Of a stretch of 45,047 bases of DNA, positions 1 to 19,688 are shown piece by piece. Below the pieces are notes generated by a model, which saw nothing but the letters and a program-made list of their open reading frames with translations, had not been told where the DNA came from and searched no databases. Source of the DNA: an uncultured Chlorobiaceae bacterium. GTDB taxonomy: Bacteria; Bacteroidota; Chlorobiia; Chlorobiales; Chlorobiaceae. A program made the position numbers and the translations under genes. The DNA is taken from contig CAIJWE010000121.1 in assembly GCA_903824295.1 (NCBI GenBank), positions 1 through 45,047 on the forward strand, given 5' to 3'. Numbering within the stretch: the first letter of the stretch is position 1; each line of letters starts with the position of its first letter.

Positions 1-1
1 C

Positions 2-376
2 GGCCTGTTAACCACCGTCGGCCTGACGGCGAAAAACGCCATCCTTATCGTGGAGTTCGCCAAAACCCTCTACGAAAGCGGTATGAACCTGCAGGAGGCA
101 GTCCTCTCTGCAGCAAGTCAGCGACTACGACCAATTATCATGACTTCCATGGCATTCATTCTCGGCGTCACGCCGCTCGCCTTCTCCTCCGGAGCAGGAT
201 CGGCAAGCCAGCACGCCATCGGCATCGGCGTCATCGGAGGAATGATGTCCGGTACGGTGCTGACGATCTTCTTTGTGCCGCTCTTCTTCATCCTCGTGCA
301 ATCCCGGTTTGCCCGAAAGACAGGAACCGACACAGCAGTAAACCAAAACGACAAGGAGTCGAACCATGAACACTAA
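2..376 (+). CDS. RND efflux pump inner-membrane subunit, C-terminal end (partial)
   Basis: Open at the window edge, so only about the last 124 residues are seen; the frame runs through position 2 without a start. The segment carries the typical AcrB/HAE1 end: a [16 protein letters not shown] helix, the RLRPIIMTS turn, a glycine-rich [12 protein letters not shown] helix and a final [10 protein letters not shown] helix, followed by a short polar tail. AcrB-type pumps are trimeric proton antiporters that expel drugs, dyes or detergents through a periplasmic adaptor and an outer-membrane channel. Its stop overlaps the start of the next gene (NodT-like channel) by 11 bases, so the two were translated as one operon; the adaptor gene is expected upstream of the window. 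Substrate cannot be judged from this fragment. Confidence 0.93.
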
Positions 377-1776
377 GCTGCTGTTTCCTTTATGCCTGAT
401 GGCAACCACCCTGACGGCCTGTTCTTTTGCGCCAGCCTATGTACGCCCGACGGCACCAGTCACCACAGAGTGGCCGGCCGCCTCCGCTGCTCGAGAATCC
501 GGGGAAGATCGGCGTACCATCGATATCGGATGGCGAAGCATGTTCAGGTCGCCAAAACTGCAAAGCCTTATCGAAGCGTCCCTTGCCAACAACCGTGACC
601 TGAGAATAGCCACCCTCAACATCGAGGCGGCCCGCCACACCTGGCGCATCCAGCGTTCGGATCTTCTTCCATCGATGAACGCCTCGGGAAGCTTCACCCG
701 CCAGGAGGTGTCAAAAAACATGAGCGGCACCGGAAACAGGGAAATCACCTCAGCTTATACCGCAGGCATCGGTACGACGGCGTATGAACTGGATCTTTTT
801 GGTCGTGTACGCAGCCTCAGCAATCGCGCCATAAACCAGTATCTTGCGACCGAAGAGGGCCGGAAAGCCGCCCAGACAAGCCTGGTCGCTGAAGTAGCCA
901 ACGCCTATCTCACCTACCTTGCCGATGTCGAACTGCTGCGACTGACCGAAAGCACGCTCACGTCAAGGCAGGATGCGCTGGATCTCATCAAACGCAGCTT
1001 CGATCTCGGGGCAAAGTCCCGACTCGATGTAGCACAGTCGGCAACACTGGTCGAATTGGCCCGGGCCAACCGTGCGCAATATCAACGTCAGGTGGAACAG
1101 GACAAGAACGCCCTGACTCTGTTGGTTGGAAAGGAGATCGATCCGATGCTTCTCGAACCCCAGCCCCTGGCAGATGTTGAGGTGCTGGAGAGGCTCCCCC
1201 GTGGGCATTCCCTCCGTCGTTCTGCTCGATCGACCGGACGTACGGCAGGCGGAATACGCACTGAAGGCAGAAAACGCCAGTATCGGAGCAGCACGGGCTT
1301 CATTCTTCCCCAGCATAAGCCTGACCGGTTCCACCGGGTTCGCCAGCGCCAGCTTGTCTGATCTGTTCGTGACCGGGTCGAGCGGTCTCTGGAGCTTCGC
1401 CCCACAGATAACACTCCCGATTTTCCAGGGAGGCCGGTTGCGCTCCAACCTCAAACTGGCTGAAACGAACCGGGATATTGCCGTTGCCCGATACGAAAAA
1501 GCGATACAGAGTGCCTTCCGGGAGGTCGCCGATGCACTGGTCGCCCGTGCGACCTACACCGAACAATTGCAGGCTCAGCGAGCTCTGGTCAAAGAGAGCG
1601 ATCAAGCCAGGATCATCACAAAAGCGCGTTACGACCATGGCATCGACAGCTATTTCGCCCTGCTGGACGCCCAACGATCCCTCTTCGAGGCTCAGCAGAA
1701 CGAAATTCTGATCCATCAACAGACTCTTGCCAACCTGATCGACCTGTACAAAGCTCTCGGAGGCGGGTGGCAATGA
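366..1776 (+). pseudogene. NodT/OprM-like outer-membrane efflux lipoprotein, frameshifted
   Basis: Outer-membrane channel of the RND pump encoded just upstream. The N-terminus has a signal peptide ending in an LTAC lipobox, then the two TolC-fold repeats with long helices. The frame starting at 366 stays coding to about 1195, then turns into an arginine-rich tail that stops at 1361. The normal continuation (VGIPSVVLLDRPDVRQAEYAL and on to LIDLYKALGGGW) lies in the frame ending at 1776. The switch falls in the run of five C at 1196-1200; removing one C restores a single protein of about 469 residues, the usual size of the family. Either the gene is recently inactivated or the base is a sequencing error. 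Nothing suggests programmed frameshifting: there is no slippery heptamer. Confidence 0.9.
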
Positions 1777-2264
1777 CAAGACCCGGCAGTTCAGCCTTTA
1801 ACCTGCTTATCCGGACAGTAAAGATGAGCTGTTTTTGAAATCAGCCTGTTTGAGCACGATCAAGTTGCAGGTTCAGTTCCTGTGACTGACACTCCTGACG
1901 ATGTAAGAAAGGGCTGTGGACAAAAGCCCGGCATCACGAATGCCGGGGCGTTCACCGTGCACAGCAATTTGTTCGTCAACCGAGCGCTGAAAACCTTAAT
2001 CAGAGGTCGCCAGGGGCTTTTTATCGGTTGAAACGACCAGCTTCAGCCCGGATTGCTCAATTCAGGACAGAAAAAAGTTATGAGTTCCCAAAATCAATTC
2101 TTATTATCCCCCGAGGGTTAACTTCTCAATAAAAAAACGGATACAATTTTTCTGCCTTGAATAAAATCATCCTGCAACAAGCTGACGTCAGGGCAAAACC
2201 TTATTCAAGAAGGCCTTTATCCGTGTTTATTTCATAAAACCATAACAACACAATAATACACGGC
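1777..2264. other. Intergenic region, no gene recognised; GC hairpins
   Basis: About 490 bases without a convincing gene. It holds a perfect 8-bp hairpin (CCCGGCAT/ATGCCGGG, 1927-1947) whose 5' arm can instead pair with GGGCT at 1911-1915. There is no T-run after either, so they are not good intrinsic terminators. The right part, from about 2080, is AT-rich and probably contains the promoter of the OmpA-family gene. Confidence 0.5.
1927..1947. other. Hairpin, 8-bp perfect stem
   Basis: CCCGGCAT (1927-1934), five-base loop CACGA, ATGCCGGG (1940-1947). It lies 150 bases after the efflux operon and could be its 3' end structure, but no U-tract follows. Confidence 0.45.
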
Positions 2265-3368
2265 ATGAATCACTCCTTAAGGAAGGCCTCTCTTCTGGGG
2301 CTGACAGCTTTACTTCTGTTTGGGCAACCCTCTGCTGTTTCAGCGGTGGAATCCAGGCCAACGATCATCTGGAATAAATATGATTTTATCCCTGGTGATA
2401 AAATCATATTCGAAGATAATCAGGAGAACGAAACAAACGGTCAATTCCCTTCAAAATGGGAACTGACTGATAAAGACAATATTGAAACAGCGAGACTTAA
2501 CGGTGATAATGTCCTTTATTTTATCAACTGCAATATGAATAGCGGTGGAGGTATTGTGCCCCTCATTAAAAACCGGGCCCAGGACTATCTGCCTGATGAT
2601 TTCACTGTTGAATTTGATGCATGGTTTTCAGATAAATATCATTCGCCTTTATACTATCTCTATTTAATAGACATAAAAAATCAGAGGTCTCTTGCCAAAG
2701 GCGCACCGAGTGGGTTAAGTGCAACCAGTCGATATCTTCGTTTTAATCGTATCAAGGCAAACCAGTATGGGGGCGTTGGCAACGCTTATCCGGGAATGAA
2801 TCAGCAGAGCAAGCTGCAGCCCATGTGGAGACATTTTGCAGTATCCTTCAGACAAGGCATTTTGAAAGCCTATATGGATGATGCCAGGGTTCTCACGATA
2901 CCAAATCTCGGTTACAATCCGACAGGCATTACTATTGGAAGTCATAATACCGGACAAACCATCAAGGGATATATCAAAAATGTCCGGATAGCTACCGGTG
3001 GCGTTCAGCTTTACAGTCGTCTCCTGTCTGCGGGTCGTGTTGCCACAACAGGCATCAAGTTTGATACTGGCAAAGCAACTCTGAAACCCGAATCGAACGG
3101 CGTTATCAATGAACTTGTGACAATGCTGAACACTTACCCATCTCTGCGCCTGCGCATTGAGGGGCATACCGATAGCGACGGTGAAACAGCAGCAAACCAG
3201 ATTCTTTCTGAAAAACGGGCTGCAACAGTCAAAGATATTCTGACAAAACGAGGTGTCACGGCGGCACGACTTACAACAGCCGCTTATGGAGAAAGTAAAC
3301 CGGTTGCAGTCAATACTTCATCTGAAGGAAAAGCAAACAACCGACGTGTTGAATTCGTTAAAATCTAA
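2265..3368 (+). CDS. OmpA-family protein with N-terminal concanavalin/LamG-like region
   Basis: Exported protein of 367 residues. Residues 1-27 are a signal peptide (basic start, LLGLTALLLF core, cleavage near AVSA). Residues about 40-245 look like a beta-sandwich of the LamG/concanavalin type: DFTVEFDAWF, a WRHFAVSF strand with GILKAYMDDARV, then GITIGSHNTGQ. This assignment is by pattern only. Residues about 255-367 are an OmpA C-terminal peptidoglycan-binding domain (GIKFDTGKATLKPES, LRIEGHTDSDG, LSEKRAATVKDIL, ending NNRRVEFVKI). It probably anchors to the cell wall in the periplasm while the sandwich domain binds a ligand or surface. A small lipoprotein follows 11 bases later, so they may be co-transcribed. 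The ATG is followed directly by the signal peptide, which supports this start. Confidence 0.88.
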   Translation: MNHSLRKASLLGLTALLLFGQPSAVSAVESRPTIIWNKYDFIPGDKIIFEDNQENETNGQFPSKWELTDKDNIETARLNGDNVLYFINCNMNSGGGIVPLIKNRAQDYLPDDFTVEFDAWFSDKYHSPLYYLYLIDIKNQRSLAKGAPSGLSATSRYLRFNRIKANQYGGVGNAYPGMNQQSKLQPMWRHFAVSFRQGILKAYMDDARVLTIPNLGYNPTGITIGSHNTGQTIKGYIKNVRIATGGVQLYSRLLSAGRVATTGIKFDTGKATLKPESNGVINELVTMLNTYPSLRLRIEGHTDSDGETAANQILSEKRAATVKDILTKRGVTAARLTTAAYGESKPVAVNTSSEGKANNRRVEFVKI

Positions 3369-3379
3369 TTAAAACAAAA

Positions 3380-3850
3380 ATGATGATGAAAAAAGTATTA
3401 GTAATTTGTCTGGTAATGTTTGGTGCTCATTATTTAATTGCTTGCGGACAGCAACAATCGCCACAGGTTCAGCCATCGACAAAAACTGATAGTGTAAACG
3501 CAGATAAAAATAGTGTCGCGAATGACACCATTAAGACAGACAGCAGTATTGAGTATCTCTCATACCAGGGCACAGCAACTGATGATGGCAATATTACCGG
3601 GAAAAATACCAAAGACGAGTTCCATCTATTTAAAAAAAATGACACTAAAAATATTGTCTATGTTATTTCAAGGTCTAATTATGGCTTATGGTCTTCAGAA
3701 AAAATTATGCCCGCTGAATTAAGGCCATTAATGCAAACTTATAAAATAGACATTGCATCGAAAAAGAAGCTGATCAACACCGACCCTACCGTTGAGTATT
3801 ATGAAATAATAAAACTCAACAGTATGGTTGAAACCGACGAGATGGAATAG
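3380..3850 (+). CDS. Small predicted lipoprotein, unknown function
   Basis: 156 residues. It begins with three consecutive ATG codons and a hydrophobic signal ending in the lipobox LIAC (cysteine near residue 22), followed by a Gln/Ser/Thr-rich linker typical of a lipoprotein stalk. The remainder is a polar domain with many Lys, Asp and Asn residues and no motif I recognise. It follows the OmpA-domain gene by 11 bases on the same strand, so a joint envelope role is plausible. It is lysine-rich and AT-rich compared with most genes in the window. Any of the three ATGs could be the true start. Confidence 0.7.
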   Translation: MMMKKVLVICLVMFGAHYLIACGQQQSPQVQPSTKTDSVNADKNSVANDTIKTDSSIEYLSYQGTATDDGNITGKNTKDEFHLFKKNDTKNIVYVISRSNYGLWSSEKIMPAELRPLMQTYKIDIASKKKLINTDPTVEYYEIIKLNSMVETDEME

Positions 3851-3875
3851 CAAGTGATGAAGAACAGGGATTAAG

Positions 3876-4192
3876 TATACTGTGGGTTATGGCAGATCGA
3901 AGAATCATTCCGGTTAACCAAGCATGATTTGAGAGTTCGTCCAATCTATCATTGAACACCAAGACGAATTCAGGCGCATGTTGCCATCTGTTTTATGGCC
4001 CTGGTCTGCATCCGTCATTTATCGTATCGGGTAAAACTGCCATACGAAACATTGTCACCGGAAATTATTCGCAATGAACTGGTACACGTACAGCAAAGCA
4101 TCCTGATTCATCAAACGAATGGAGCTCGTTATGGTATTCCTTCAAAAACAACTCTGCATGCCAAGAAGATTTATCAGGTCATGGGTGAATAA
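3876..4192 (+). pseudogene. IS4/IS1634-type transposase remnant (C-terminal end)
   Basis: Only ATG-started translation from 3995 is long, but the same frame reads back to about 3876 as transposase: WQIEESFRLTKHDL and RVRPIYH, then a TGA at 3953-3955 exactly where related enzymes have Trp (YHW), then TPRRIQAHVAICFMALV and a tail with HVQQSILIHQTNGARYGIPS and KIYQVMGE. The WQIEESFR glutamate is the third acidic residue of the DDE site in this family. The remainder of the element is missing, so it cannot move. It lies next to the 3' end of the SLOG/TIR/nSTAND operon, which points to past insertion and rearrangement at that boundary. The family name is from recall of conserved motifs. Confidence 0.75.
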
Positions 4193-4444
4193 CTCAGTTC
4201 AGTGTCGTTCCTCATAGCATAGTTTTTAGGTCAAACTATTGCATTGTAGTGCCTAAATTTTTAGACCAATCCTTATTTTACTTGCACTTACACGGATTTA
4301 TGTATGAAGTCAGAAAAAATAACCTGATAGCCTCCACTTTTTCCTTTGCCTCGTCCGGCGTGACATGTCGCCATCCTGGCTGCCCTCAGGTGCGCACCCG
4401 GCCCCGATCAATCGTGCCGTGACTTCTGGAAATCAGCTCTCAGT
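4193..4444. other. Spacer between transposase remnant and defence operon
   Basis: No gene. It contains short imperfect inverted arms TTTAGG (4225-4230) and CCTAAA (4252-4257) in an AT-rich context, which might be a leftover element end. No clear intrinsic terminator is seen for the minus-strand operon ending at 4445. Confidence 0.35.
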
Positions 4445-7400
4445 TTACTTGCGAAGCGAGATGTTATTCCACCGTTCAAATTCTGCAAGGGGTACCTGCC
4501 TGTCCATGTTCTTGTTGATTTTTATTCCAAGGGAAGTTGACGGAAGTGGCGGTACAAGGATTTCAAAAACCCTTCTGTTACGTATGACTGCCATGGAAAC
4601 TCGCTCTTTGCAATGTTTGATAATTTCGTTATTGAACGATTGAAAAAGAGCCATCATCATATGTTCGTTTTTTGTCCCGCGTACTACTTCAGCGGCTAAA
4701 GCCTTATTGTAAGACCATTTGCCGTACTTCCAGATCACATCTCCCTTATGTAGGCCTATTTTTACAGCAGGTTGTTTGAAATCAGGGATCTGTTCGACAA
4801 ACATGACCGGAACGAGAATATAAGTATCGGGAGAGGCTATCTGGTGGTTTTCTTTATCGAAGTATTGTACCCTCCCCCCAACTGACGTTTTTGCGATACG
4901 GTGATATCCTGATGCTCCAACAACAGGCTCACCGTCAGGCCCGAACCATGCGACAGAGAGCTGGTTCCCTTTTTTGTCCCTCTGCATGCGTTTTTCCGCA
5001 AATCCTTCCGGCCCGTTTATCAATTTCCTGTCTGCTCCGTAATAGGAAATTCTCAATGGACTTTGATATATGATTGCGTAACCGTAAAGCGGGTTAAAAA
5101 GAAGCTGTCCATTTTTGCCGAAGTGATATACTACCATTCCACCATCAGGTTGATAGACTTTATATCCCCTCGCGTACCCATAGAATCCTGTTACAAGACG
5201 GTTCCGTTCATCATAATAGGCCTGTTCAGTCCACTTGTTTTCCCTGTTATAAACAGAGGTAACTTTTGCAATACCAAGATCGCGATCCCTGTTGGGGCGA
5301 CCATCAGCTCTCAACCGGGTATGGCTGATCTCTCGCCCCTTGTCGTCATACTGTGATTCTACAAGGTGGTCACCCTCTTTATCTTCTACCGGCTTTCGGT
5401 TAAGCCCGAAACACTGCCATTTCGTTTGCTGTCGCTTGTCATTATATGCACCAAGTATCTCGTGGATACCATCATAACCAACAGCAGGCATCTCCTTTGG
5501 ATTGTACCGCGTCTCATTGGTAACAAGTCCCGGATAAGAATCATAACACCTCTTGACGCAATGGGCTCCATCCGGCCCTTTACACGCAATGCTGTCTTTA
5601 TCGAACCAACGGCTGGATTTCTTGTTTCCGAAACGGTCGTACTCAGATTCGACGCGACTGAAATGCAGCCGACCGTCAACGGGCTTTCCAGAAGGGTCAC
5701 TGAACTGCTCAGACCTGCAATGCCGGAACAAATCGAAGGTACGGGAAATGCAAGGAACGCCGTTGGTCTTGTCAGATACCGGCCTGTTTCCTGCATCAAA
5801 ATAGGCCTCTTTAACAATATTGTCAGCGCTGTCATAGCTGTTTTTCTTGCAGTGATACCCTTCCGCATTCTCTACCGGCTTGTGAGCAGCATCGAAATAT
5901 CGTTCTTCAACCACTCGGCCAAAGTCGTCGTTCAACCACTCAGTTCTGCAGAACCCCTGCTTCGTAACAACGGGAGTGTCAATCGAGTCAAGCGTGGTGT
6001 ATGCGCAGAGAAAACCTTTTTTATCATATTCTAACTTCAGTTTATTCCAGCCTTCAGGACCGGTGACCGGTTTTCCTGAGACATCAAAATAGGCGAGTGT
6101 CTCCTGTTTATTTTTGGAATTATAGGTACAACGCTGTTCGTGCGCAGGGAAATGGTATAACTTTGTCCCGGCAACTATTGGTTGACTGAAGGTATCGAAC
6201 AGCTTTATGCTTGTGCGGTTTCCCCGGTCGTCATAAGCAAAGGTGATTTTGTGCGCATTGGACTGTTCTGTCTCAGCGACAGGCTCACCAGAAAGGTCAA
6301 AGTGGAGTCTTGCCACCTCATTTCCCCAGTTGTCATACGATAGCTTCACTGCATAATAACCTGATTTGAGGAGGGTCGGCTCCCCTTTAGCGTCGAAAGC
6401 ATATGCCGCAATCTGATTTCCATCAGAATCGTACTTCTTGTCTTGGCCCGCGTTCCAGGCATCATCATTAACCAGCATACCCTGCTCATTCAATGATGTC
6501 CTGCAAATTGCTCTTCCCATGTCGTCATATTTCAATTGGACGCCGTAGGCATTATCGGGTCCCGGTTGAGGATCGCCCTTCCGGTCATAGTACTTCAGGA
6601 TGGTTTCGAAGCCACGATTGTCATATTCTATTGCGACAATTTCCGCACGGCTGTGCCCTTGCGGTTTCGGATATCCTTCGGAATCCACAAAAAAACCTTT
6701 CGTTGAAGCAGTTTTCTCTTGTCCTGATGGAATATGAACAAAGGTCCAGTTTCTACGGTTGAACCGATCCCAAGCCACCTCATAAACAACTTTATCGTGA
6801 CGGTCATAGACAAATTCGTAACGCACTGGTTTTTCCCGTAATTCCATATTATCCTTGTCAGCAAGGTAGGTCGTTATCGTATGATTTGGCGTTGGTTGAC
6901 CATTTGCATCAATGACCTCTACCGATTGAACAGGATTTAATCTGCCATTGCTGGTCAGTTTCAGCGTCCAGGAGCGATGTGCAACTGCGTCGTGTGAAAG
7001 GGGGCCGACCGGGTAAATGACTCCCCAGCGTTTGGTAAAATTCCTGCTGTAGGAGTGAAAGGGTATAACGTATAAATAGAGATAGAGAGAAATGGCGATG
7101 ATACCTGTTACTATCGCCATGACCGACGTTCTTAATAATCGACGGGTTTTATGAAGTTCCTGTTGCCGTAGGGTTTCCTGTGCAAGCTCTTCTGCCTGTT
7201 TTTTTGCCTGGCTCGCTTCGAGGAATTCCATCGCAAGCTGAAAGTTGCCTCCATATCGTTCTGCCCATTCAGCAGTAGGGCGTTCATGCTCTTTCCATGC
7301 AAGGGCGGTTTCGAGGTTTGGGGTACTCCAGAGGGCAGCTTGACCCTCTTTCCAGCGTTTGGCGCTCTGTTCGAGAAAGCGGTAGGTGTCGGCAGCTTTT

Positions 7401-8668
7401 GCCTCCTCTTCAACCCAGCAATTCAATCGTTTCCAAAGCTTGATCAGGCTTTCATGACTGATGTCGATGACGCTCTCTTCAAGTAATTTGCTGGAAACCG
7501 GCGGAACAAGAAAACCATAGGCGGGATCACGAAACCGTTCAACAATTTCGATGATTGCATCTGCCGATACCCCTGCACGCTCAGCAATTGTTGCAACAGA
7601 GGCAGGATGCCGGCCATCCCTGTGAGCGGAGCCACGTTCACAGATGCTTCGGAACAGAACTTCGGCAATTACTTTTTGTTCATCGTTCAGACTGTCGTAT
7701 GCCTGGTCTGCATGACGAGAAAGGGCTTCGGCAAGTCCGCCGACCTGTTCATAATCCTCCATGCTCAGAACATGGCCGAGATGCTCTTCAGGAATACCGA
7801 AATTAAAGGGATTGTTCGTGTCTGGCTGCTTCGATGGTTTTGTTGTAGACCACATTCGCATCAACAGATGCTGGAGAACAGGCAGTTGATTGGGATCATT
7901 GCCGGTTTCGTTGAGGAGCCGGTTAACCAGCCCGGCCTCAACATCACCGCCGAAGACCCGTGCCGGACCGGTAATGGCAGCTTCCCGTTGATCACGGGTT
8001 AATCGCGGAGTCAGATACTGGCTCCGGTTCAGTGCTTCGGGAAGACCTGGAAATATTGCACAGTCACTCAGATAATCGGAGCGCATGGTAATGACCACAT
8101 AAACCCGCAGATCTGGTTGAGCAACACTTTCGAGAAGTAATGCCGCGAAGGCATCCTGCTCATCGCAGTTGTTCTTGCTCCGAAAGCGGAAGAGCTCTTC
8201 AAACTGGTCAACAATCAGAAGCAGATTGGTTGCCTGTGGCAGCGGAGTTTCTTCAAGAACCTCCATCAACCCTCTCGGTCCCCGTCGCAGGATAGCCTCA
8301 AGTGTTCCTGCGCTTTCTTCAATGGCTGTGGCTGTTTTTTTTCGCTCAGCGCCAAGAATGTTCTCCTCCATCAATGCCTCGTCAAGGGCTTTGAACGGAT
8401 GGGTTCCGGGACGCATGGTGGCGATTTTCCAGCGGGAACCTGCTGTTACAATAAATCCGGATTCCAGCGCTGGAATCATCCCGGCAAGAACCAGTGAAGA
8501 TTTCCCGCACCCGGAAGGACCAACAACTCCAAGAAACCTGGTCTGTGAGAGTTTCCGCAAGAGATCGTCTGTCTGCTCCTCGCGCCCGAAAAAAATGTCT
8601 GCCTCCGAGGAGTGAAAAGGTCTCAGACCGGGATAAGGATAGATGGCCGAAGAATACATGGTTGACAT
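4445..8668 (-). CDS. nSTAND1 NTPase with TM segment, YD-like repeat array and PDZ-like end
   Basis: 1407 residues. Residues about 10-31 carry the nSTAND1 entry motif (PYPGLRPF, ADIFFGRE). Walker A is GPSGCGKSS (50-58) and Walker B LLLIVDQFEE (149-158). The helical region ends with IDISHESLIKLW (401-412), typical of the family. A coiled-coil-like stretch (about 480-510) leads into one membrane helix (about 511-537). Residues about 600-1270 hold roughly 15-18 degenerate units of about 45 residues with the pattern YD..GN....YFD..GKPV..PEGY, similar to YD/RHS-type beta repeats but longer. The end (about 1281-1395) is PDZ-like (VKIGLHKGDVIWKYG). STAND NTPases usually oligomerise after sensing a ligand, and the repeat array is the likely sensor. 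Its ATG shares one base with the TIR gene stop (TAATG), so translation is coupled. The specific role is inferred. Confidence 0.9.
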   Translation of the reverse strand: MSTMYSSAIYPYPGLRPFHSSEADIFFGREEQTDDLLRKLSQTRFLGVVGPSGCGKSSLVLAGMIPALESGFIVTAGSRWKIATMRPGTHPFKALDEALMEENILGAERKKTATAIEESAGTLEAILRRGPRGLMEVLEETPLPQATNLLLIVDQFEELFRFRSKNNCDEQDAFAALLLESVAQPDLRVYVVITMRSDYLSDCAIFPGLPEALNRSQYLTPRLTRDQREAAITGPARVFGGDVEAGLVNRLLNETGNDPNQLPVLQHLLMRMWSTTKPSKQPDTNNPFNFGIPEEHLGHVLSMEDYEQVGGLAEALSRHADQAYDSLNDEQKVIAEVLFRSICERGSAHRDGRHPASVATIAERAGVSADAIIEIVERFRDPAYGFLVPPVSSKLLEESVIDISHESLIKLWKRLNCWVEEEAKAADTYRFLEQSAKRWKEGQAALWSTPNLETALAWKEHERPTAEWAERYGGNFQLAMEFLEASQAKKQAEELAQETLRQQELHKTRRLLRTSVMAIVTGIIAISLYLYLYVIPFHSYSRNFTKRWGVIYPVGPLSHDAVAHRSWTLKLTSNGRLNPVQSVEVIDANGQPTPNHTITTYLADKDNMELREKPVRYEFVYDRHDKVVYEVAWDRFNRRNWTFVHIPSGQEKTASTKGFFVDSEGYPKPQGHSRAEIVAIEYDNRGFETILKYYDRKGDPQPGPDNAYGVQLKYDDMGRAICRTSLNEQGMLVNDDAWNAGQDKKYDSDGNQIAAYAFDAKGEPTLLKSGYYAVKLSYDNWGNEVARLHFDLSGEPVAETEQSNAHKITFAYDDRGNRTSIKLFDTFSQPIVAGTKLYHFPAHEQRCTYNSKNKQETLAYFDVSGKPVTGPEGWNKLKLEYDKKGFLCAYTTLDSIDTPVVTKQGFCRTEWLNDDFGRVVEERYFDAAHKPVENAEGYHCKKNSYDSADNIVKEAYFDAGNRPVSDKTNGVPCISRTFDLFRHCRSEQFSDPSGKPVDGRLHFSRVESEYDRFGNKKSSRWFDKDSIACKGPDGAHCVKRCYDSYPGLVTNETRYNPKEMPAVGYDGIHEILGAYNDKRQQTKWQCFGLNRKPVEDKEGDHLVESQYDDKGREISHTRLRADGRPNRDRDLGIAKVTSVYNRENKWTEQAYYDERNRLVTGFYGYARGYKVYQPDGGMVVYHFGKNGQLLFNPLYGYAIIYQSPLRISYYGADRKLINGPEGFAEKRMQRDKKGNQLSVAWFGPDGEPVVGASGYHRIAKTSVGGRVQYFDKENHQIASPDTYILVPVMFVEQIPDFKQPAVKIGLHKGDVIWKYGKWSYNKALAAEVVRGTKNEHMMMALFQSFNNEIIKHCKERVSMAVIRNRRVFEILVPPLPSTSLGIKINKNMDRQVPLAEFERWNNISLRK

Positions 8669-10008
8669 TATGCATTCTCCTGTTCAAGACCATCAATAAA
8701 GGCTGAAATTTCCCTGTTCAGATGAAAATCATCGATACCTTTTCTTAAATCAAGCAATTGCAGATTTGGAAACATACACTCAATAGAGCTTTTCTCTTCA
8801 GGAGGCCCTTCAAATATCGCAAATGCCTGAATCGGCTTATCGCGTTTTGAAAGCATTTTTCTGCATTCAAGCAATTGCCGGCGCACCCAGACAGCGGTAC
8901 TGCTTCCATAGATGACAATCAGACCGTCGCACTCAAGAAGATTGACTTCAAGATCACTTCTGATATCCGAGGGGTCTCCACTGGCAAGAGGACGACTGTA
9001 CCCGACGCCCTGTCGTTTCAGTTCATCGCATACTTTTTCGGCAAGTGGCCGATCCGAAGACTCCATGTTGACAAATATCAAGGCGTTCAGGTTGGCTGGC
9101 TTTTTCACCGGCTGTGGTTTGACTTGTGAGGGTTTCAGGATAAAATCCTTAACTGCCCGTTTAAACTCTTCGATGCCTTCTGCTCTTACCGTGTCGCCGC
9201 TTACCAATAACCGATGCTCCTCATCCTGAATGGACGACATATTAAGGTAGGGACTGCGCCACTGGAAAAGAGGTTTTCCTGAATTTCTGGCAATCTCATA
9301 CTGCAACTGTAAATATCCCTTTGGCGAATCCGCTGGCTTCTTGCCTGGTCGAGCGTTTAACAACTGCACAAAAACAGCACAGTCAGCGAGGTCTTTTTCT
9401 GTGCATAAGCTCAAACTGGTCGCTTCCAGAGTTTGGTCAAGGGTGTAACAGGTATTCGGAAGAACATAAATCCCGTATTGATTCAGATAGCTTTTTACAC
9501 TTGTTCGTTCCTCTTCCAAATCATGAGCAACATCGCCAAGAAAGACGCAACGCTCCTTTGACTGTATGGGCACTTCGGGCGCATCCGGTAATGGATTCGG
9601 AAGTGCCTCGGCAGGAGGAAAAGAGATAATGGCATTGATGAGAGCGATAGTTTCACTCCTGTCGGGATTGCAGTAATTGATAAACTGAACTGTTTGCAAT
9701 TCCGAAGGGAGCTGGTTCATCTTGACGTTATCGCCAACCAACACCGGCAAGAGGTGTTTCCGAAGGCTGCGGGCGTAGGTGTATTCAAGCGTACATGCTA
9801 CAGAATCGTTTGATTCCTGACTCAACGCAAGAATGAATATGTCACAAGCGCGTATTCTGACCAGTATTTCATCCCACCACTGCTGCCCTCCCGACAGTTT
9901 TTTGTCGATCCATAACTCGTAGTCTGGAAACTTGCTCAAATCATTGAAAAGCACCTCGACGCTTTTGTTTGTTTTACTGCTATAGCTCAGGAATATCTTT
10001 TTTTTCAT
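8668..10008 (-). CDS. Protein with three tandem TIR-like domains
   Basis: 446 residues, predicted soluble. Domain 1 (residues 1-130) is a clear TIR: KIFLSYSSK, LWIDKKLSGGQQWWDEI, CDIFILALS, then SNDSVACTLEYTYA, where E75 sits in the position of the catalytic glutamate of NAD-cleaving TIRs. Domain 2 (about 153-290) starts RCVFLGDV and has QYEIARNSGKPLF, with E238 in the equivalent place. Domain 3 (about 308-442) starts LIFVNMESSDRPLAE and has VWVRRQLLECRKML, with E381. Domains 2 and 3 are more divergent and may be regulatory. Bacterial TIRs make signalling molecules from NAD or deplete it. It is the middle gene of the operon, 102 bases after the SLOG gene and overlapping the nSTAND1 gene by one base. 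Whether all three domains are catalytic cannot be told. Confidence 0.88.
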   Translation of the reverse strand: MKKKIFLSYSSKTNKSVEVLFNDLSKFPDYELWIDKKLSGGQQWWDEILVRIRACDIFILALSQESNDSVACTLEYTYARSLRKHLLPVLVGDNVKMNQLPSELQTVQFINYCNPDRSETIALINAIISFPPAEALPNPLPDAPEVPIQSKERCVFLGDVAHDLEEERTSVKSYLNQYGIYVLPNTCYTLDQTLEATSLSLCTEKDLADCAVFVQLLNARPGKKPADSPKGYLQLQYEIARNSGKPLFQWRSPYLNMSSIQDEEHRLLVSGDTVRAEGIEEFKRAVKDFILKPSQVKPQPVKKPANLNALIFVNMESSDRPLAEKVCDELKRQGVGYSRPLASGDPSDIRSDLEVNLLECDGLIVIYGSSTAVWVRRQLLECRKMLSKRDKPIQAFAIFEGPPEEKSSIECMFPNLQLLDLRKGIDDFHLNREISAFIDGLEQENA

Positions 10009-10110
10009 AATCCAACTCTATATTTGTTGCCAAATTTCATGTCACCGTTGATCCAGGCCCAAGGCGACTTCTGCCGAAAAGCCCTTGCAAAAAACGTTAT
10101 TCAAAAAAAC

Positions 10111-11796
10111 TCACGCCACAAGTTCGGGTGAATTGAAACTGATGAGCGCCCACCATTCAAATGTTTCAAGATTGACGGTTTGTGTAGCTTGCTGAACGAT
10201 CTGTCTGAGATCTTCAAGAGTTGTGCATTGTATTGCATGTTCTTCCTGCCTCTCCAGCTCAACGGCCATTTTGTTTGAGCGGGCAGCAATGCGTTCATAT
10301 TCCAACTGTTTGCCGATGGCATGGATTGCAGCGCCCCAAGCGGGCAAGATGATTGCAAGAAAAGTGCACAATTCACCGAAGATCGTACCATGTCCTATTC
10401 CGAGGAGGTGCAAAACAGCCATTGCAAGGGTGACACAAAACAGCGCGAACACGGCGTTATGCAGGTTGTGTTCGGCATGTTGTTTTCTTTTGGCATTTTT
10501 CAGGTGCCAGTTTTTTTGATCGGCCAGCCATCCATCAATGACAAATCTCTGTACCTCTTCCAATGATGGAGTACTGATGCCGGCAAGTACGTTTTTGACA
10601 TTGGTGGCAATCAGGAAGTCAATCCAGTTTTTCGGCTTGTTGTAGAATGGCAGGGTTTGCGTTGCTGATTTTGCTTCAGAATCGGTATTTCCTTGCAGAA
10701 CGATGGTAAACATGATGGTGCGAAGCTGTTCAGCAAGAAATCGGTAATCAATCCATTTTTCATGCCAGGATAACCGTTGGCACCTCCAGAGAGCCACGAG
10801 TACGCCAGCCATTGCGCACAACTCAAACACAATTATCCATAGATCATGTGGCAGAAAGATATGCTGGAACACCGCTACCGTAACAGCAACAGCAGCAAAA
10901 ATATGGATAGCTTTACTTGCCCGGACATGCCTCTTTTGATAATGGACGGCAAGCTGGTCTGCGCGAACATAGGTCGGGATGAGATTATCCAGCACGGGCA
11001 CAAAAAGTGATTCGGGCAAGGCGGCCCGTTTTGCCGCTTTCGTAAACTCCTCGGAGCATGCTGAAGCGGCTGTTTTAAACGTCTCTCTGGTGAGTGAACC
11101 ATCCCTGACGAATTCGACAAAATGCACATAATTCATGGAGAGTTTTTTTACAACATCGGGCAGTTGATGCTCGTCGTAGAGTGGCTTATTGTTCTCCGAT
11201 TTACCACCATTTTTCGGGGAAACAAGCAGAGTTGCCGGTGATGATGGATTGTCGGGATCAATACGGAGAACGGTGCGTCCCCATTTGAGAGCATAGCCGA
11301 CAATATCGGCGGTGCCACCCTCTCCTTTTGCCGGTTTTCCATCCCAGACAGCAATCAGGATTTCGCATGCATCGACAACTTTCTTTCCGACAAGCAGGTA
11401 TTTTGCGTTACGTTGATCCGGGTTGAACTCTTCCGATTTCTCTTGACTGCCTGTTTGTTCATGCGCGGCCTCTTTGAACAGCTCTTCAAACTCCACCCTG
11501 TCAGCAGGCTCGGCGAAGTCTTTGCGGTACTCATCAAGAGCAAATGGAAGCAATACTTTCAACCGGGAGTTCGGAAGTTTCAGTATTGAACGGGCGACCA
11601 TGCGGTCGGCTCCTTTGGCCAACGGAGAAATAGCTGTCCATTTGACAAGAATATCCTCCTCTTTTACGAACATTCTATTGAGAACTGCTATAAGGCGATC
11701 AACGGCTTCCGCTACAGGTTTTTCATCAGTCAGATTCCGGTGACCGGTGACTCCTATACGGAGTTCATAGGAGTGTTGCTCTGGCTTGCTTTGCAT
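10111..11796 (-). CDS. SLOG-domain protein with C-terminal membrane segments
   Basis: 561 residues. Residues about 12-180 are a Rossmann-like SLOG domain: LRIGVTGHRNL (12-22), ISPLAKGADRMVA (56-68), then CEILIAVWDGKPA with GEGGTADIV (144-166) and the strand TVLRIDP. SLOG domains bind nucleotides or nucleotide-derived signals. The C-terminal half is membrane-embedded, with helices about 296-315, 319-337, 446-465 and 472-493, and WIDYRFLAEQLR (348-359) between them, a motif seen in SLATT/DUF4231-like membrane effectors. The expected role is a ligand-gated membrane effector that permeabilises the inner membrane when its signal binds. It is first in the operon, upstream of the TIR gene. The SLOG call is strong; the exact family of the membrane part is less certain. 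Confidence 0.87.
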   Translation of the reverse strand: MQSKPEQHSYELRIGVTGHRNLTDEKPVAEAVDRLIAVLNRMFVKEEDILVKWTAISPLAKGADRMVARSILKLPNSRLKVLLPFALDEYRKDFAEPADRVEFEELFKEAAHEQTGSQEKSEEFNPDQRNAKYLLVGKKVVDACEILIAVWDGKPAKGEGGTADIVGYALKWGRTVLRIDPDNPSSPATLLVSPKNGGKSENNKPLYDEHQLPDVVKKLSMNYVHFVEFVRDGSLTRETFKTAASACSEEFTKAAKRAALPESLFVPVLDNLIPTYVRADQLAVHYQKRHVRASKAIHIFAAVAVTVAVFQHIFLPHDLWIIVFELCAMAGVLVALWRCQRLSWHEKWIDYRFLAEQLRTIMFTIVLQGNTDSEAKSATQTLPFYNKPKNWIDFLIATNVKNVLAGISTPSLEEVQRFVIDGWLADQKNWHLKNAKRKQHAEHNLHNAVFALFCVTLAMAVLHLLGIGHGTIFGELCTFLAIILPAWGAAIHAIGKQLEYERIAARSNKMAVELERQEEHAIQCTTLEDLRQIVQQATQTVNLETFEWWALISFNSPELVA

Positions 11797-12238
11797 AAAT
11801 GTTCATCACGAATTAATGAAGAGGACTCTATCAATTCAACCGTCCAGCTTTACAACATCGCACCTTTCTTGTTTTCGCAAAGGGGTACGTCCCGAAACAG
11901 GGTACCGTCCTTTCTCTTTTTCACCCAAAGCACAAGTACTGCGCAATATACGAAAGCAATACACATATTGCGCGTCAACAAGCGATTATCGATTCAAGAA
12001 TGAATGGCAAACCCCCTTGCCTTCGTCAGGCCTTCCTGGGTACGATCCTGAATCAGGCGTCAGCTTTATTATGACTGAGTGCGGGCTTTTTTGTATGTTC
12101 CTGCATTCTTTTTTGATTCAGGTTTTTAACTTGTCTTGACGGGTTCTTGTCAATGATGGGCAAACAGGTGGTTGAAGCTTTTATCTTGTAATTTTTGTGG
12201 CGAGGAAGCCATAACTTATTATAAAAAAGGGTACCGCT
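11797..12238. other. Divergent intergenic region: SLOG operon promoter side and ACT gene leader
   Basis: About 440 bases between the minus-strand SLOG operon and the plus-strand ACT gene. It holds a 9-bp inverted repeat (11941-11973), an inverted pair TTGAC (12136-12140)/GTCAA (12149-12153) and AT-rich runs near 12215-12230 that may be the ACT gene -10 region. No gene is recognised. Confidence 0.5.
11941..11973. promoter_or_regulatory. 9-bp inverted repeat, possible operator of the SLOG/TIR/nSTAND operon
   Basis: GCGCAATAT (11941-11949), 15-base spacer, ATATTGCGC (11965-11973): perfect arms, centre to centre about two helical turns, which suits a dimeric regulator. It lies about 145 bases upstream of the SLOG start codon, and a TTGAC box on the minus strand adjoins it. 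No regulator gene is in the operon, so the binding protein is unknown. It could also be an RNA hairpin. Confidence 0.4.
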
Positions 12239-12667
12239 ATGATTATCAAGCAATTGTCGGTGTTTCTCGAAAACAGGACGGGACGGCTTACCGAGCTGAC
12301 CGGTATCCTTGCCGCCAACGATATCAACATCTCGGCATTCAGCATTGCTGATACGGCCGACTACGGCATTCTGCGCATGATTGTCGGACGTCCCGAAGCG
12401 GCGGCAGAGGTGCTGCGAAACGAGGGATTTGCCGTCAAAATTACCGATGTTGTCGGAATGATTATTCCTCACAGGCCGGGCGGCCTGCATAAGGCGCTGC
12501 AGATCATCTCGGATAACAATGTTGCGATTGACTATATGTACGCTTTTGCATCCGGAGATTGCAAGGCAACGGTAGTTATCAGGGCTGACTCGCTGCAAAA
12601 ACTAATTGATGTCCTGCAGGAGCACAAAATGGAGCTGCTTCAGGAAGGGGATGTCTATCAGGTATAA
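12239..12667 (+). CDS. Tandem ACT-domain protein
   Basis: 142 residues made almost entirely of two ACT domains: residues 1-67 (IIKQLSVFLENRTGRLTELTGIL, with INISAFSIAD) and about 70-142 (VVGMIIPHRPGGLHKALQIISDN, with IDYMYAF). ACT domains bind amino acids and control metabolic enzymes; stand-alone double-ACT proteins of this length are common in anaerobes and are often next to phenylacetate-CoA ligase or amino-acid genes. Here an aminotransferase starts 12 bases downstream, which suggests amino-acid-responsive control of that enzyme or pathway. There is no catalytic domain. The ATG follows a purine-rich AAAAAAGGG stretch. Confidence 0.9.
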   Translation: MIIKQLSVFLENRTGRLTELTGILAANDINISAFSIADTADYGILRMIVGRPEAAAEVLRNEGFAVKITDVVGMIIPHRPGGLHKALQIISDNNVAIDYMYAFASGDCKATVVIRADSLQKLIDVLQEHKMELLQEGDVYQV

Positions 12668-12679
12668 AATCAATTCATC

Positions 12680-13873
12680 ATGCCAAGGTTTTCAAAAGCT
12701 GTATCATCTCTTCGTTCGTCGGAAATCAGGGATCTCATGACTCTTGCATCAAGGCCGGACATCATCTCCTTTGCGGGGGGAATGCCCGGCAATGAGCTTT
12801 TTCCTGTTGAGGAGATTGAGGAGCTTTTCCGCGGGCTCGACCTGAAAAAGAAACAGGCGGCATTTCAGTATGGCCCGACGCCCGGCCTTCCCTCACTCCT
12901 TGAGTCGCTTGCCGGGTTCCTTGAAACAAAGGGGTTGCCGGTTAAGGAGAACAGGCTGCTTATCACCACAGGCTCCCAGCAGGGGCTCAACCTGTTTGCT
13001 AAAGCTTTTATTGATCCGGGGGAGCCTGTCCTTGTCGAAAACCCCTGCTTTATCGGGGCGCTCTCGGCTTTCCGCGCCAGTGAAGCGGAACTGAGAGGGG
13101 TGCCGGTTGACCATGAAGGGATTTCGATGGAGGCGCTACGCCAGGAGATTGAGAGGGCGGAGAGGGCGAAATTTCTCTATATCACTCCCTATTTCCACAA
13201 TCCGGCAGGGCTGCTCTACTCGATTGAGCGCAAAGAGCAACTTATCAAGGCGCTTCAGGGAGAGAATATTCCGCTCATAGAGGATGATGCCTATGGCGAC
13301 CTCTATTTTTATGAAGAGGATCGGGAGCGTCTCAAGCCGATCAAGGCGATTAATCCGGAAGGGATCAATGTCTGCTATACCGGCTCCTTTTCGAAAATTC
13401 TGGGCCCCGGCCTGCGGCTTGGCTGGATGCTGGTGCCCGAAAAGATTTATCAGAAATGTGAGCTCATCAAGCAGTCAGCCGATGCCTGTTCGCCAAGTTT
13501 TACCCAGGTTCTCGCTGATGCCTTTATCCGTTCCGGCCAGATTTACACCTATATTGCAGGCGTACGGCAGGAATACAAAAGAAGGGCTGAGGCCATGGTT
13601 GCCGCTCTCAGGCAGTACCTGCCCGATTATGTGCAGTGGAACGAACCACGAGGCGGGTTCTATATATGGATCACGCTGCCCGAAGGAGCCGATGCAACCC
13701 GCATCATGACACTGGCGGTCGAAAAGGGCGCAGTCTTTGTGGCCGGAAAAACATTTGATCCCGCAGGGAAGCGCAACAACTCCCTCAGGCTCTCTTACTG
13801 CAACAACACCCCGGAACAGATCGCCGAGGGTATTCCCATCGTGGCCGGGGCCATCGTCGAGTGCTGCGGGTGA
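12680..13873 (+). CDS. PLP-dependent aminotransferase, fold type I (LysN/MocR-like class I)
   Basis: 397 residues, full length for class I/II aminotransferases. Visible features are the start region DIISFAGGMPGNELFP, FQYGPTPGLPSLLE, ITTGSQQGLNLFAK, the substrate-loop ITPYFHNPAG, EDDAYGDLYF, the PLP-lysine motif SFSKILGPGLRLGW with K239, and the C-terminal arginine motif NSLRLSYCN. The FAGGMP and FHNPAG signatures match the group that includes 2-aminoadipate, aromatic and branched-chain aminotransferases, so it moves an amino group from such an amino acid to 2-oxoglutarate. There is no N-terminal GntR DNA-binding domain. It is co-directional with the ACT protein (12-base gap). The exact substrate cannot be read from the sequence. 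Confidence 0.92.
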   Translation: MPRFSKAVSSLRSSEIRDLMTLASRPDIISFAGGMPGNELFPVEEIEELFRGLDLKKKQAAFQYGPTPGLPSLLESLAGFLETKGLPVKENRLLITTGSQQGLNLFAKAFIDPGEPVLVENPCFIGALSAFRASEAELRGVPVDHEGISMEALRQEIERAERAKFLYITPYFHNPAGLLYSIERKEQLIKALQGENIPLIEDDAYGDLYFYEEDRERLKPIKAINPEGINVCYTGSFSKILGPGLRLGWMLVPEKIYQKCELIKQSADACSPSFTQVLADAFIRSGQIYTYIAGVRQEYKRRAEAMVAALRQYLPDYVQWNEPRGGFYIWITLPEGADATRIMTLAVEKGAVFVAGKTFDPAGKRNNSLRLSYCNNTPEQIAEGIPIVAGAIVECCG

Positions 13874-14016
13874 GCCAACGTTATACAGCCAAATTCCACA
13901 GTTTTCCCACTGAACAGGCATGGATTGATCGGCATTCGGGACAATGCCTGAGAAAAATATTCGCACATCACTCATTTATATACAGACAAAAGTGCAATTT
14001 TCTCTCCCTTGCGCGA

Positions 14017-14418
14017 ATGGCTGCGCTGGTGGGTATATGGTTTATCTGTTCCCCCGGTGCAGCTTCCTGTCCCAAGAATCAAAATGGCAAAAAAATGGTG
14101 CATGAACTCGTTGAAACGGATAATGAGCGTGGGGCGGATATCCGTTTGCATGAAACGGTGAGGATAACACTGCCGGAGAACGCTACCACGGGGTACCGTT
14201 GGGTAGTTGAACGTTATGACAGGGCGCTCTTGAACGAGCTGGCCGCCGAATCACATTATCCAACGGCTGCTGTGGTTGGTTCCGGTGGCAATGTTGTTTT
14301 CATCTTTCAGGGGAAAAAGAGTGGTAGAGGAGAAATATTACTCAAGCAATGGCACTCATGGGAGGGGGATGCATCAGTCATTGCCCGTTTTCGAGTTCTC
14401 GTCAATGTTCTTCCATAG
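14017..14418 (+). CDS. Chagasin-family (I42) cysteine protease inhibitor, secreted
   Basis: About 133 residues from the chosen ATG. The first 20 or so residues form a hydrophobic export signal (ALVGIWFICSPGAAS). The mature part has the three chagasin loops: NATTGYRW (normally NPTTGY.W), the glycine turn VVGSGGNVVFIF, and the HSWEG loop corresponding to RPW. These loops plug the active-site cleft of papain-like cysteine proteases. The frame is open back to 13861, overlapping the aminotransferase end, but that stretch has no coding look apart from basic residues just before 14017, which could form the n-region if a rare start is used. Targets in this organism are unknown; defence against foreign proteases or control of its own are both possible. 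Confidence 0.8.
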   Translation: MAALVGIWFICSPGAASCPKNQNGKKMVHELVETDNERGADIRLHETVRITLPENATTGYRWVVERYDRALLNELAAESHYPTAAVVGSGGNVVFIFQGKKSGRGEILLKQWHSWEGDASVIARFRVLVNVLP

Positions 14419-14504
14419 CACTATTTTTTATCCATAAACTCATCCATCAGGGGCGGCTTGTTATAAGTTGAGGGTGGGCAATGAACGCTTGAATTATCCT
14501 GATT

Positions 14505-16604
14505 TTACTGATAGCGCTTGCGGATAGCGAGCGTTTCGATACGGGAATAGAGCGTTTTTGGATGCATGGCAAGCTTTTCTGCGGCACCGCCCTCTCCGCT
14601 TACCCGGCCGTTTGAGCGGCCGAGGGCGTCAAGTATCAGCTCCCGCTCCATCACTGCCATATCAAGTTCAAAATCGTGCATGGTTTTCTGTCGCAGGGAG
14701 TGCTGCGCATCCAGAACTGAAGGCAACGGCGAAAGCAGTGTTGAAAAATCAAGAGACACCCCTTCAGACACAATAACCGCCTGCTCTACAAAGTGGGCAA
14801 GTTCACGGATATTGCCCTTCCACTCTCGCACGACAAGACGCTGCATATCACTCTCCCTGAAGGTGCGGAGCGGCCTCGCAAACTCCCTTGAAAATTTGGC
14901 CGCAAAATGGGCGGCAAGCATGGCAATATCCTCCCTGCGTTCAGAGAGCGGCGGAATGGCAAGAGGAAAGACGTTAAGCCGGAAGAAGAGATCTTCGCGG
15001 AATCGCCCTTCGGCAACCTCACGCGAGAGATCACGGTTGGTGGCGGCAATGACACGCGCGTCAACCTTGATCACCTGTCGACCGCCAAGCCGCTCAAGTT
15101 CACGTTCCTGAAGCACACGCAGCAGCTTGGCCTGGAGCTCCAGAGGGAGTTCACCAATTTCATCCAGAAAAATCGTTCCGCCCTCAGCCAGCTCAAACTT
15201 GCCGATGCGGCGTTCCGTAGCACCGGTAAAACTTCCCTTTTCGTGACCGAACAGCTCGGATTCGATGAGCGGCCCGGGCAGGGTAGCACAGTTAATCTTG
15301 ATCAACGCACGCTTGCTGCGGGCTGAAAGATTGTGCAGGGCACGGGCGAAGAGCTCCTTTCCAGTCCCGGTCTCTCCCTGAATGAGCACCGTCGCGTCGG
15401 TAGGGGCCACCTGACTTACCCGGCGCAAGACCGCTGCAAGCGAGGCACTGCTGCCGATAATCTCCTCAAAGTTATGTGCCGCCTTGATCTCTTCGATGAG
15501 GCAGGTTCGCTCCCCCTCAAGCTTGCGGCGCAGCTCATCAATCTCCTCAAAAGCGAGATAGTTCTGGAGGGCAAGTGAGAGCTGGGGAACAATGAGGCTT
15601 ACGGTCGCCTGATCATGCTCTTCAAAAGAGCGGGAAGTATCGGAGATGATGAGCCCCGCACGGCTTCCGGGCGTATCCCAGAGCGGAACCGTGAGCAGGG
15701 AGCAGATACCAAATCGTTCTTTGACCAGAGCAAGAATCCGGTACTCCTCGCAAAGCTGGAGAAAGGCTGCGCCGCAAAAGCAACCCGGATTGGAAATCAG
15801 GGCAAAACTCTCCCGAGTGATCTCATCAATATCATCAACAGCCAGCATCTCTCCTGGAGTAATCGGCACAAAGCCACCGCCACCCTCACGCATGAAACTG
15901 TCAAAAATGCGATAGCTTCCGTCTTCTCCCATGACGCGAATGCCAAGGAAGGTGCAGGGTACCAGCTTGTCGATCTGCTCGCAGACCGCCAGCAGCATTC
16001 GGCTTCGATCCTTGATGGTGAGCAAGGCATTGTTGATGGCAAGCTGCATGGCCGTCTGGGCTTCACGCTGCCGTAACTCCTCGTAGGCAAGGGCATTGCT
16101 GACGCCAACGGCAACAGGCGATGAAAGTGTTGCCAGAAGCTCTTTTTCACTCTCCGACCAGCTCTTTTTATCCTTTGAAACAAAACAGAGAAAGCCGATC
16201 ACCTTGCCGCCGGTGCGCAGCGGCGAAAGCACTACCTGCCGCATACCGAGGTCGCAGAGTATCTGCAGAAGCGGAACGTCCGTAGTGTAACGCTCAAGAG
16301 CCTCTTCGATCGTGATAACTGAAACCGCCTGATCGCCCAGATGGGGTTCGATCCACGATCCTGCAATCAGCCTCTTTCGGCGATCAAACGTTTCGGGAAG
16401 CTGAAAGCGCAGCATTTCAAAAAAGACATTACTGTACCGCCCCTCCTTGTCAAAAGTAATGATGACGGCGGAATCAAACTCAAAAACAAGACGAAGCTTG
16501 TCGATAACCGTGCGGAAAAGCTCCTGGGGGTCACGGATTGAACCGACGGCATCGCTGATGTATTGCATCAGCTTATGGGCTTGATGGACGGAAGAATTGC
16601 TCAT
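14505..16604 (-). CDS. Sigma-54 enhancer-binding regulator with two GAF domains
   Basis: About 699 residues from the ATG at 16604 (a TTG four codons earlier, at 16616, is an alternative; residue numbers here count from that TTG). Two GAF sensor domains span about 18-175 and 185-350, with a GCFCG cysteine cluster near 278-282 in the second. A short coiled coil leads to the AAA+ domain: Walker A GETGTGKE (414-421), GSFTGA (461-466, a Ser variant of the GAFTGA sigma-54 contact loop) and Walker [10 protein letters not shown] (481-489). A Fis-type helix-turn-helix is at the end ([16 protein letters not shown]). It lacks a phosphoreceiver domain, so a small ligand or redox state sensed by GAF likely controls it, as in NorR/FhlA. 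It is divergent from the efflux operon with a -24/-12 promoter between them, so it most likely activates that operon. Confidence 0.95.
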
Positions 16605-16653
16605 GGCACAACACAAAGGGAGTGGTATTCCTGAAAATTAAGAACACATAGTA

Positions 16654-16665
16654 CAGAAAATTCTG
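16654..16665. promoter_or_regulatory. Inverted repeat CAGAA/TTCTG, candidate activator site
   Basis: CAGAA (16654-16658), AA, TTCTG (16661-16665), about 90 bases upstream of the -24/-12 promoter, a usual distance for enhancer-binding protein sites. Short, so it could be chance. Confidence 0.35.
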
Positions 16666-16711
16666 ATTATTTCGGAATCGTACATGACGAAGCAGAGTTA
16701 GGCGGCCCTGC

Positions 16712-16724
16712 AACGCATTGCGTT
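16712..16724. promoter_or_regulatory. Inverted repeat AACGC/GCGTT, candidate upstream activator site
   Basis: AACGC (16712-16716), ATT, GCGTT (16720-16724), about 30 bases upstream of the -24 element and inside the divergent region next to the sigma-54 regulator. Possible regulator binding site; unproven. Confidence 0.35.
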
Positions 16725-16751
16725 AACTGATTATCGGGACATTGCAGAACT

Positions 16752-16768
16752 CTGGCATGTTAATTGCA
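16752..16768 (+). promoter_or_regulatory. Sigma-54 (-24/-12) promoter of the TolC-UspA-EmrAB operon
   Basis: CTGGCATG-TTAA-TTGCA: the GG (16754-16755) and GC (16766-16767) elements have exactly the 12-base offset needed by RpoN, and the match to YTGGCACG-N4-TTGCW differs at one base. The start site would be near 16779, about 30 bases before the tolC-like ATG. A sigma-54 activator gene sits on the other side of the region, which greatly strengthens the call. Confidence 0.85.
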
Positions 16769-16809
16769 AACTTAAGAGCAACGGATATAACGGAACAAAC
16801 CATAGCTCC

Positions 16810-18141: not shown

Positions 18142-18142
18142 G

Positions 18143-19559: not shown

Positions 19560-19688
19560 CACATACAATAAATTACCCGGAAGCTCCCGGCCATCTTATT
19601 CCGAATCAACCTCTTGAGGTGAGGGATCGACCGGCCAGGAGCACTCGGTAACAACTGCACAACGTTCGAAGAAGCACTCAATAAAAGC

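Follow-up and report, generated by a model that had tools for sequence, protein, structure and literature searches.

A predicted single-pass nSTAND1 receptor with a YD-like repeat ectodomain and a mosaic gene, encoded beside a probable TIR-DUF4062 NADase in Chlorobiaceae

STAND-TIR systems are already known. Most STAND sensors of known mechanism are cytoplasmic, and the cytoplasm is likewise the site of action of most bacterial immune sensors whose mechanism has been worked out. The nSTAND1/STAND conflict systems (PMC8195603, PMC10907252) and Avs-type STAND defence have an NTPase with a large sensor of variable type on its C-terminal side, together with partner domains of toxic type; some STAND sensors are predicted to be periplasmic (PMC10907252). 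The receptor gene described here, which lies in a 45,047-nucleotide stretch of DNA from an uncultured green sulfur bacterium of the Chlorobiaceae (the whole of this stretch is referred to as the window), follows the same general plan. It differs from these systems in that its sensor is an array of 32-residue YD-like repeats with a PDZ-like end, placed beyond a transmembrane (TM) helix, and in that the effector is specified by a separate TIR-DUF4062 gene.

Likeness to other known systems is also partial. DUF4062 has been reported to be a family of TIR-like NADases that act against phages, and Swarozyc, which belongs with these NADases, is reported to assemble with the phage portal (PMC13174449). 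The partner gene of the receptor has DUF4062 as well as TIR but, unlike Swarozyc, it has DUF4062 within a TIR protein that is paired with a membrane STAND protein, and the gene context differs. A SLATT-type two-TM protein is encoded beside NAD/nucleotide-type effectors, as in SLOG/SLATT conflict systems (PMC7159879), but its SLATT scores are under the curated cut-offs and the GTPase or MoxR-vWA core is missing. With RHS/YD-repeat proteins (Rhs effectors, teneurins, Tc toxins) the array shares YD-type strand-turn-strand units and local fold matches; it departs from them in its period of 32, in a core motif that is not found and in a global fold that is not matched. (The likeness to Toll-like receptors and plant receptor kinases is functional: relatives of TIR-TM-array and kinase-TM-array build also combine a repeat ectodomain, one TM helix and a TIR or kinase inside, but without an LRR family above cut-off and with the domain order reversed, and homology is not claimed. 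The window protein has no LRR match, and its relative L052 has only a weak LRRCT_2 match below cut-off.) No TIR/STAND-TM-YD receptor or ectodomain class is described in the literature searched, the coverage of which leaves out many journals.

The layout of the receptor gene and its neighbours is given in Table 1. The original prediction of an nSTAND1 ATPase with a single TM helix at about residues 511-537 holds: the Pfam profile scores 323 bits against a curated cut-off of 27.1, Walker A (GPSGCGKS, residue 50) and Walker B (LLLIVDQFEE, residue 149) are both intact, and the helix coincides with the hydropathy maximum. This architecture, and the mosaicism of the gene that is taken up below, are evident at the level of sequence. 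A PDZ-like cap had also been proposed. Pfam finds no PDZ match in the window protein sequence alone, and the AlphaFold2 (AF2) model of the C-terminal end by itself is poor and uninformative on a PDZ fold. Support for the cap comes from a profile of six C-termini, which matches solved PDZ domains; nearest are those of a site-2-protease homolog (E=9.9e-5, the best match) and of DegP-like proteases. PDZ_6 is listed in four of the six members of this alignment (best E 0.002), and L178, a relative of similar build, has PDZ_6 at the equivalent place with E=5.5e-10. An Rfam scan of positions 1-20000 of the window gave no match.

Table 1. Features of the receptor operon and its flank (window coordinates)
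Feature	Position	Strand	Evidence or remark
Receptor gene, 1407 aa	4445..8668	-	domain order nSTAND1, TM, juxtamembrane block, array of 32-aa repeats, PDZ-like end
PDZ-like C-terminal region, residues 1271-1407	4448..4858	-	profile matches to solved PDZ domains
Repeat array, residues 677-1270, 19 units	4859..6640	-	lag 32 z=8.9; AF2 pLDDT mostly 70-94
Degenerate array start, residues 601-676	6641..6868	-	low model confidence
Juxtamembrane (JM) block, residues 538-600	6869..7057	-	alignments; profile matches outside its training set
Mosaic breakpoint, codon 551	7016..7018	-	nearest relative changes from L048 to L049
TM helix, residues about 511-537	7058..7138	-	hydropathy maximum 2.21; basic residues on N-terminal (cytosolic) side
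nSTAND1 NTPase, residues 11-443	7340..8638	-	PF20703 E=5e-96; Walker A, Walker B
TIR_2 + DUF4062 protein, 446 aa, probable NADase effector	8668..10008	-	TIR_2 E=2e-22, DUF4062 E=5e-8
SLATT-type membrane protein, 561 aa	10111..11796	-	NCBIfam SLATT_1 E=2e-8, Pfam SLATT_3 E=2e-5
Left end of segment syntenic with four congeners	12063..12063	.	blastn; sequences around junction

The start codon of the receptor gene overlaps the stop codon of the upstream TIR-DUF4062 gene by one base. The TIR domain of the upstream product aligns with a catalytic-type Glu, which all the TIRs compared retain apart from a degenerate one in L032, and its DUF4062 match scores 33.6 bits against a curated cut-off of 24.7; cleavage of NAD+ by this protein is therefore probable on sequence grounds. 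At one position of DUF4062, L048 has Asp where the window protein has Glu, so this domain may not always be active. The SLATT-type gene precedes both. Its scores are just under the curated cut-offs (25.6 against 26.3 bits for SLATT_3 of Pfam, 34 against 41 bits for SLATT_1 of NCBIfam), homologs of its product adjoin receptors in L028 and L041, and its N-terminus reads like SLOG by eye, with no match by any tool. PADLOC gave no match at the level of a system; its only matches, to TIR-like proteins and generic ATPases, are weak.

The repeat array is periodic far above chance, but not with the period of about 45 residues that had been suggested. On self-comparison, lag 45 gives only z=1.9; lag 32 gives z=8.9 against a maximum of 4.0 over 500 shuffles, further peaks follow at 64, 97 and 130, and the STAND half has no comparable peak. 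An HMM of the 32-residue unit, built without Chlorobiaceae sequences, places 16 units between residues 587 and 1261 (12 of these have E<0.01), while 40 shuffled arrays yield at most three matches each. Structure prediction agrees: the AF2 model consists of strand-turn-strand units, mostly 32-33 residues apart, and because two weak ones precede the 19 that are listed in Table 1, the array is taken to comprise about 19-21 units, rather than the 15-18 first counted.

The YD/RHS-like character ascribed to these repeats is upheld by Foldseek, whose top-ranking matches are Rhs effectors, teneurins and Tc YD shells. Since the best E value is 3e-23 and yet TM-scores are only 0.1-0.3, the array is regarded as locally RHS-like, with its overall coil not established. 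Against sequence profiles, the window array scores 16.1 bits with RHS_repeat (cut-off 22) and 18.6 bits with YD_repeat_2x (cut-off 15.8), and in the more regular relatives L050 and L052 both profiles exceed their curated cut-offs. A sequence search for solved homologs of the array found none, and no viral contig was confirmed to carry it. Plasmid searches with the L050 array returned 70 weak records, 67 of them from Burkholderia; among the matches listed most are Rhs proteins, and the similarity is weak (E 1e-4).

Searches with the array, and with the JM block joined to the array, find the ectodomain as a module in distant phyla, where JM-plus-array modules stand directly behind a TM helix in each case. 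What lies on the other side of the helix varies. A TIR domain is joined directly to TM-JM-array in L052, L169, L177 and L178; TIR-nSTAND1 shares a chain with the module in L050 (Microvirga massiliensis); a Ser/Thr kinase takes this place in L054, L056 and L172, and nSTAND1 in L055 and in L174-L176 (the last three from the order of a Muribaculaceae genome). Among the nSTAND1 forms the partner gene encodes TIR or SIR2-TIR, the latter in Chlorobiaceae L041 (the same as L055) and in L174-L176. More generally, the gene upstream of the nSTAND1 gene is of TIR or SIR2-TIR type in many relatives, and in one such case the sensor is WD40. The JM block is common to TIR, kinase and nSTAND1 receptors in alignments, and its profile matches receptors and array proteins outside its build set at E 8e-25 to 1.6e-4. 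The kinase-bearing relatives show that the ectodomain need not go with a killing effector. The module is rare: it occurs in 6 of 394 genomes in a phylum sample, plus one weak match, and five of the six are the window's own genome or sources of the profile.

These relatives also bear on topology. The original prediction placed the array across the membrane from the ATPase, and the TIR-TM-array, kinase-TM-array and exported array-only proteins support this. Array-only proteins in L046, L047, L053, L170, L174, L175 and L180 begin with a signal peptide or lipobox, as judged by eye; because array proteins that have no cytosolic part start in this way, the array is very probably extracytoplasmic. 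Three array-only proteins (in L174, L175 and L176) match the JM profile too. Basic residues around the TM helix are more numerous on its N-terminal side in 12 of 14 receptors and equally divided in the other two (L049, in which the segment scored was not the TM helix, is left out of this count). From the export signals, the JM-profile matches and the K/R bias, the predicted topology of the receptor, N-terminus in and array out, is therefore well supported. The original suggestion that the array could sense something at the cell surface is plausible.

By sequence comparison the gene itself is a mosaic, its cytosolic half being nearest to L048 and its outer half to L049 (both from uncultured Chlorobiaceae). 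Measured against L048, the window has a dS of 0.52 for the STAND part, rising to 1.2-1.4 for the array; measured against L049, dS falls from 1.84 for the STAND part to 0.65 for the array's first half. Where a site agrees with one of these relatives and not with the other, the favored relative changes at residue 551, which lies 14 residues beyond the TM helix: to the left, 337 sites favor L048 and 68 favor L049; to the right, 228 favor L049 and 139 favor L048. The maximum chi2 at this breakpoint is 167, against no more than 20 in 2000 permutations (the test takes three sequences and fits one breakpoint, and L049 is broken after residue 1019). Replacement of the ectodomain by recombination near the membrane boundary would be the simplest reading of this pattern.

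Distribution within the genus is patchy, most sampled congeners being without the system. In blastn, four congeners match the window to the right of 12063 and share none of the DNA to its left, where the operon stands; L028 carries the operon at another site, next to a homolog of the 39.5-44.4 kb region of the window. This pattern fits a mobile accessory operon. Position 12063 was considered as a defined attachment site and rejected; it is a variable junction, because congeners also part from one another there. (The original prediction included neither the two operon partners, of TIR-DUF4062 and SLATT type, nor the conserved JM block, nor the ectodomain swap.)

We regard it as somewhat better than an even chance (a probability of about 0.55) that the gene encodes a receptor which faces the envelope and sets off TIR effectors that cleave NAD+, probably in defence against phages or competitors. 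The receptor would be a single-pass inner-membrane protein with its nSTAND1 NTPase in the cytoplasm and its JM block, 32-residue array and PDZ-like end in the periplasm. The ectodomain would bind some event at the envelope, which might be a phage adsorbing or injecting, a toxin from a competitor, or envelope proteins that have been misfolded or clipped, these last being read by the PDZ-like end. The signal would pass through the JM block and TM helix to the NTPase, which would exchange nucleotide and oligomerise, and the TIR-DUF4062 protein, thus gathered and activated, would cleave NAD+. Permeabilisation of the membrane may be contributed by the SLATT-type protein, perhaps upon a nucleotide signal. 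The outcome would be growth arrest or death of the cell, which would limit spread. A NADase output we infer with good support; the ligand, oligomerisation, killing and defence purpose are conjectural parts of this scheme.

The main rival to envelope-triggered defence retains the membrane receptor and assigns it to ordinary envelope-stress or cell-cell signalling, with the TIR protein making a signal or adjusting metabolism without killing. The related ectodomains on Ser/Thr kinases, and the resemblance of the PDZ-like end to envelope-stress PDZ domains, speak for such a role, to which we assign a minor but appreciable probability; against it, outputs of the TIR, TIR-nSTAND1 and SIR2-TIR kinds are met with repeatedly, and such a set is characteristic of defence by NAD cleavage; patchy accessory distribution together with ectodomain swap suits conflict better than housekeeping.

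Two other explanations concern the array. It might be cytoplasmic, the TM helix serving as a mere anchor, and sense intruders inside the cell as other STAND proteins do. The mostly cytoplasmic location of mechanistically characterized STAND sensors favors this; we nevertheless consider it improbable on account of the single TM helix with its basic side on the STAND side, of the array's place after a TM helix in proteins with TIR or kinase domains too, and of the export signals on array-only relatives, three of which match the JM profile. Alternatively, the array might be a shell of RHS type that houses a toxin or delivers it, as its best Foldseek matches and its weak similarity to plasmid Rhs proteins would allow. 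The low TM-scores and the period of 32 stand against this, as does the Rhs core motif, which a regex search found in none of 24 proteins checked; the C-terminus is PDZ-like, without a toxin domain, and related arrays are carried by kinases and TIRs. For lack of core motif and toxin end the Rhs toxin shell was rejected, and we give it the least credence of all.

If envelope-triggered defence is the correct reading, the operon would connect a trigger that works across the envelope to effectors that cleave NAD+, and a single ectodomain would be shared by several alarm outputs and swapped between alleles. More tentatively, and with the odds rather against so broad a statement, it may belong to a widespread but rare class of envelope immune receptors, with TIR, TIR-STAND, STAND or kinase inside, a TM helix, a JM block, and the 32-residue array, often with a PDZ-like end, outside. 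Such receptors would detect attack on the envelope, diversify by exchanging ectodomains at the membrane boundary, and be, in function, the prokaryotic equivalent of Toll-like receptors and of the receptor kinases of plants. With its two or three genes, this operon would make it possible to test whether suicide systems of bacteria can be set off by receptors at the cell surface.

Synteny with four congeners, which extends over the part of the window to the right of position 12063, ends abruptly there; past this point, on the side of the receptor operon, the congeners also differ among themselves, and 12063 is therefore a variable junction. Further left, the gene of an outer-membrane efflux protein appears split into two frames (see table), apparently by frameshift or assembly error.

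Among the receptor's relatives, a stop codon (TAG) divides a kinase-TM-array gene in frame (L172). The receptor copy at L029 and L049 ends prematurely at residue 1019, its match showing two stops, and is a truncated or decaying allele; the hydrolase gene at L029 lies downstream of it.

Coordinates of related genes and neighbouring features
Locus	Position	Strand	Feature
Window	366-1776	+	OEP/NodT type; frames 366-1361, 1126-1776
L172	5049-8723	-	Kinase-TM-array; frames of 717 and 494 aa
L029 / L049	6508-9567 / 6405-9464		Receptor copy
L029	5015-6421	-	Alpha/beta hydrolase fused to TPR-S (PF20308)
L051	7347-10748		Clostridia
L057	5256-8921		Clostridia
L053	3462-11345		Clostridiales; 2,627 aa
L180	5212-9119		Bacteroidales; tandem pair

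Arrays of the receptor's 32-residue type are C-terminal in two Clostridia proteins (L051, L057), whose long N-terminal parts are hydrophobic (by eye) and carry no Pfam name. The Clostridiales protein (L053) has no cytosolic domain: an apparent signal peptide region precedes 32-residue units nearly throughout. Each array protein of the Bacteroidales pair (L180) starts with an apparent lipobox. At L174-L176, diverged nSTAND1-TM-array-PDZ genes have SIR2-TIR genes upstream; on their downstream side lie genes encoding array proteins that are separate and exported, perhaps serving as ligand, decoy or co-receptor.
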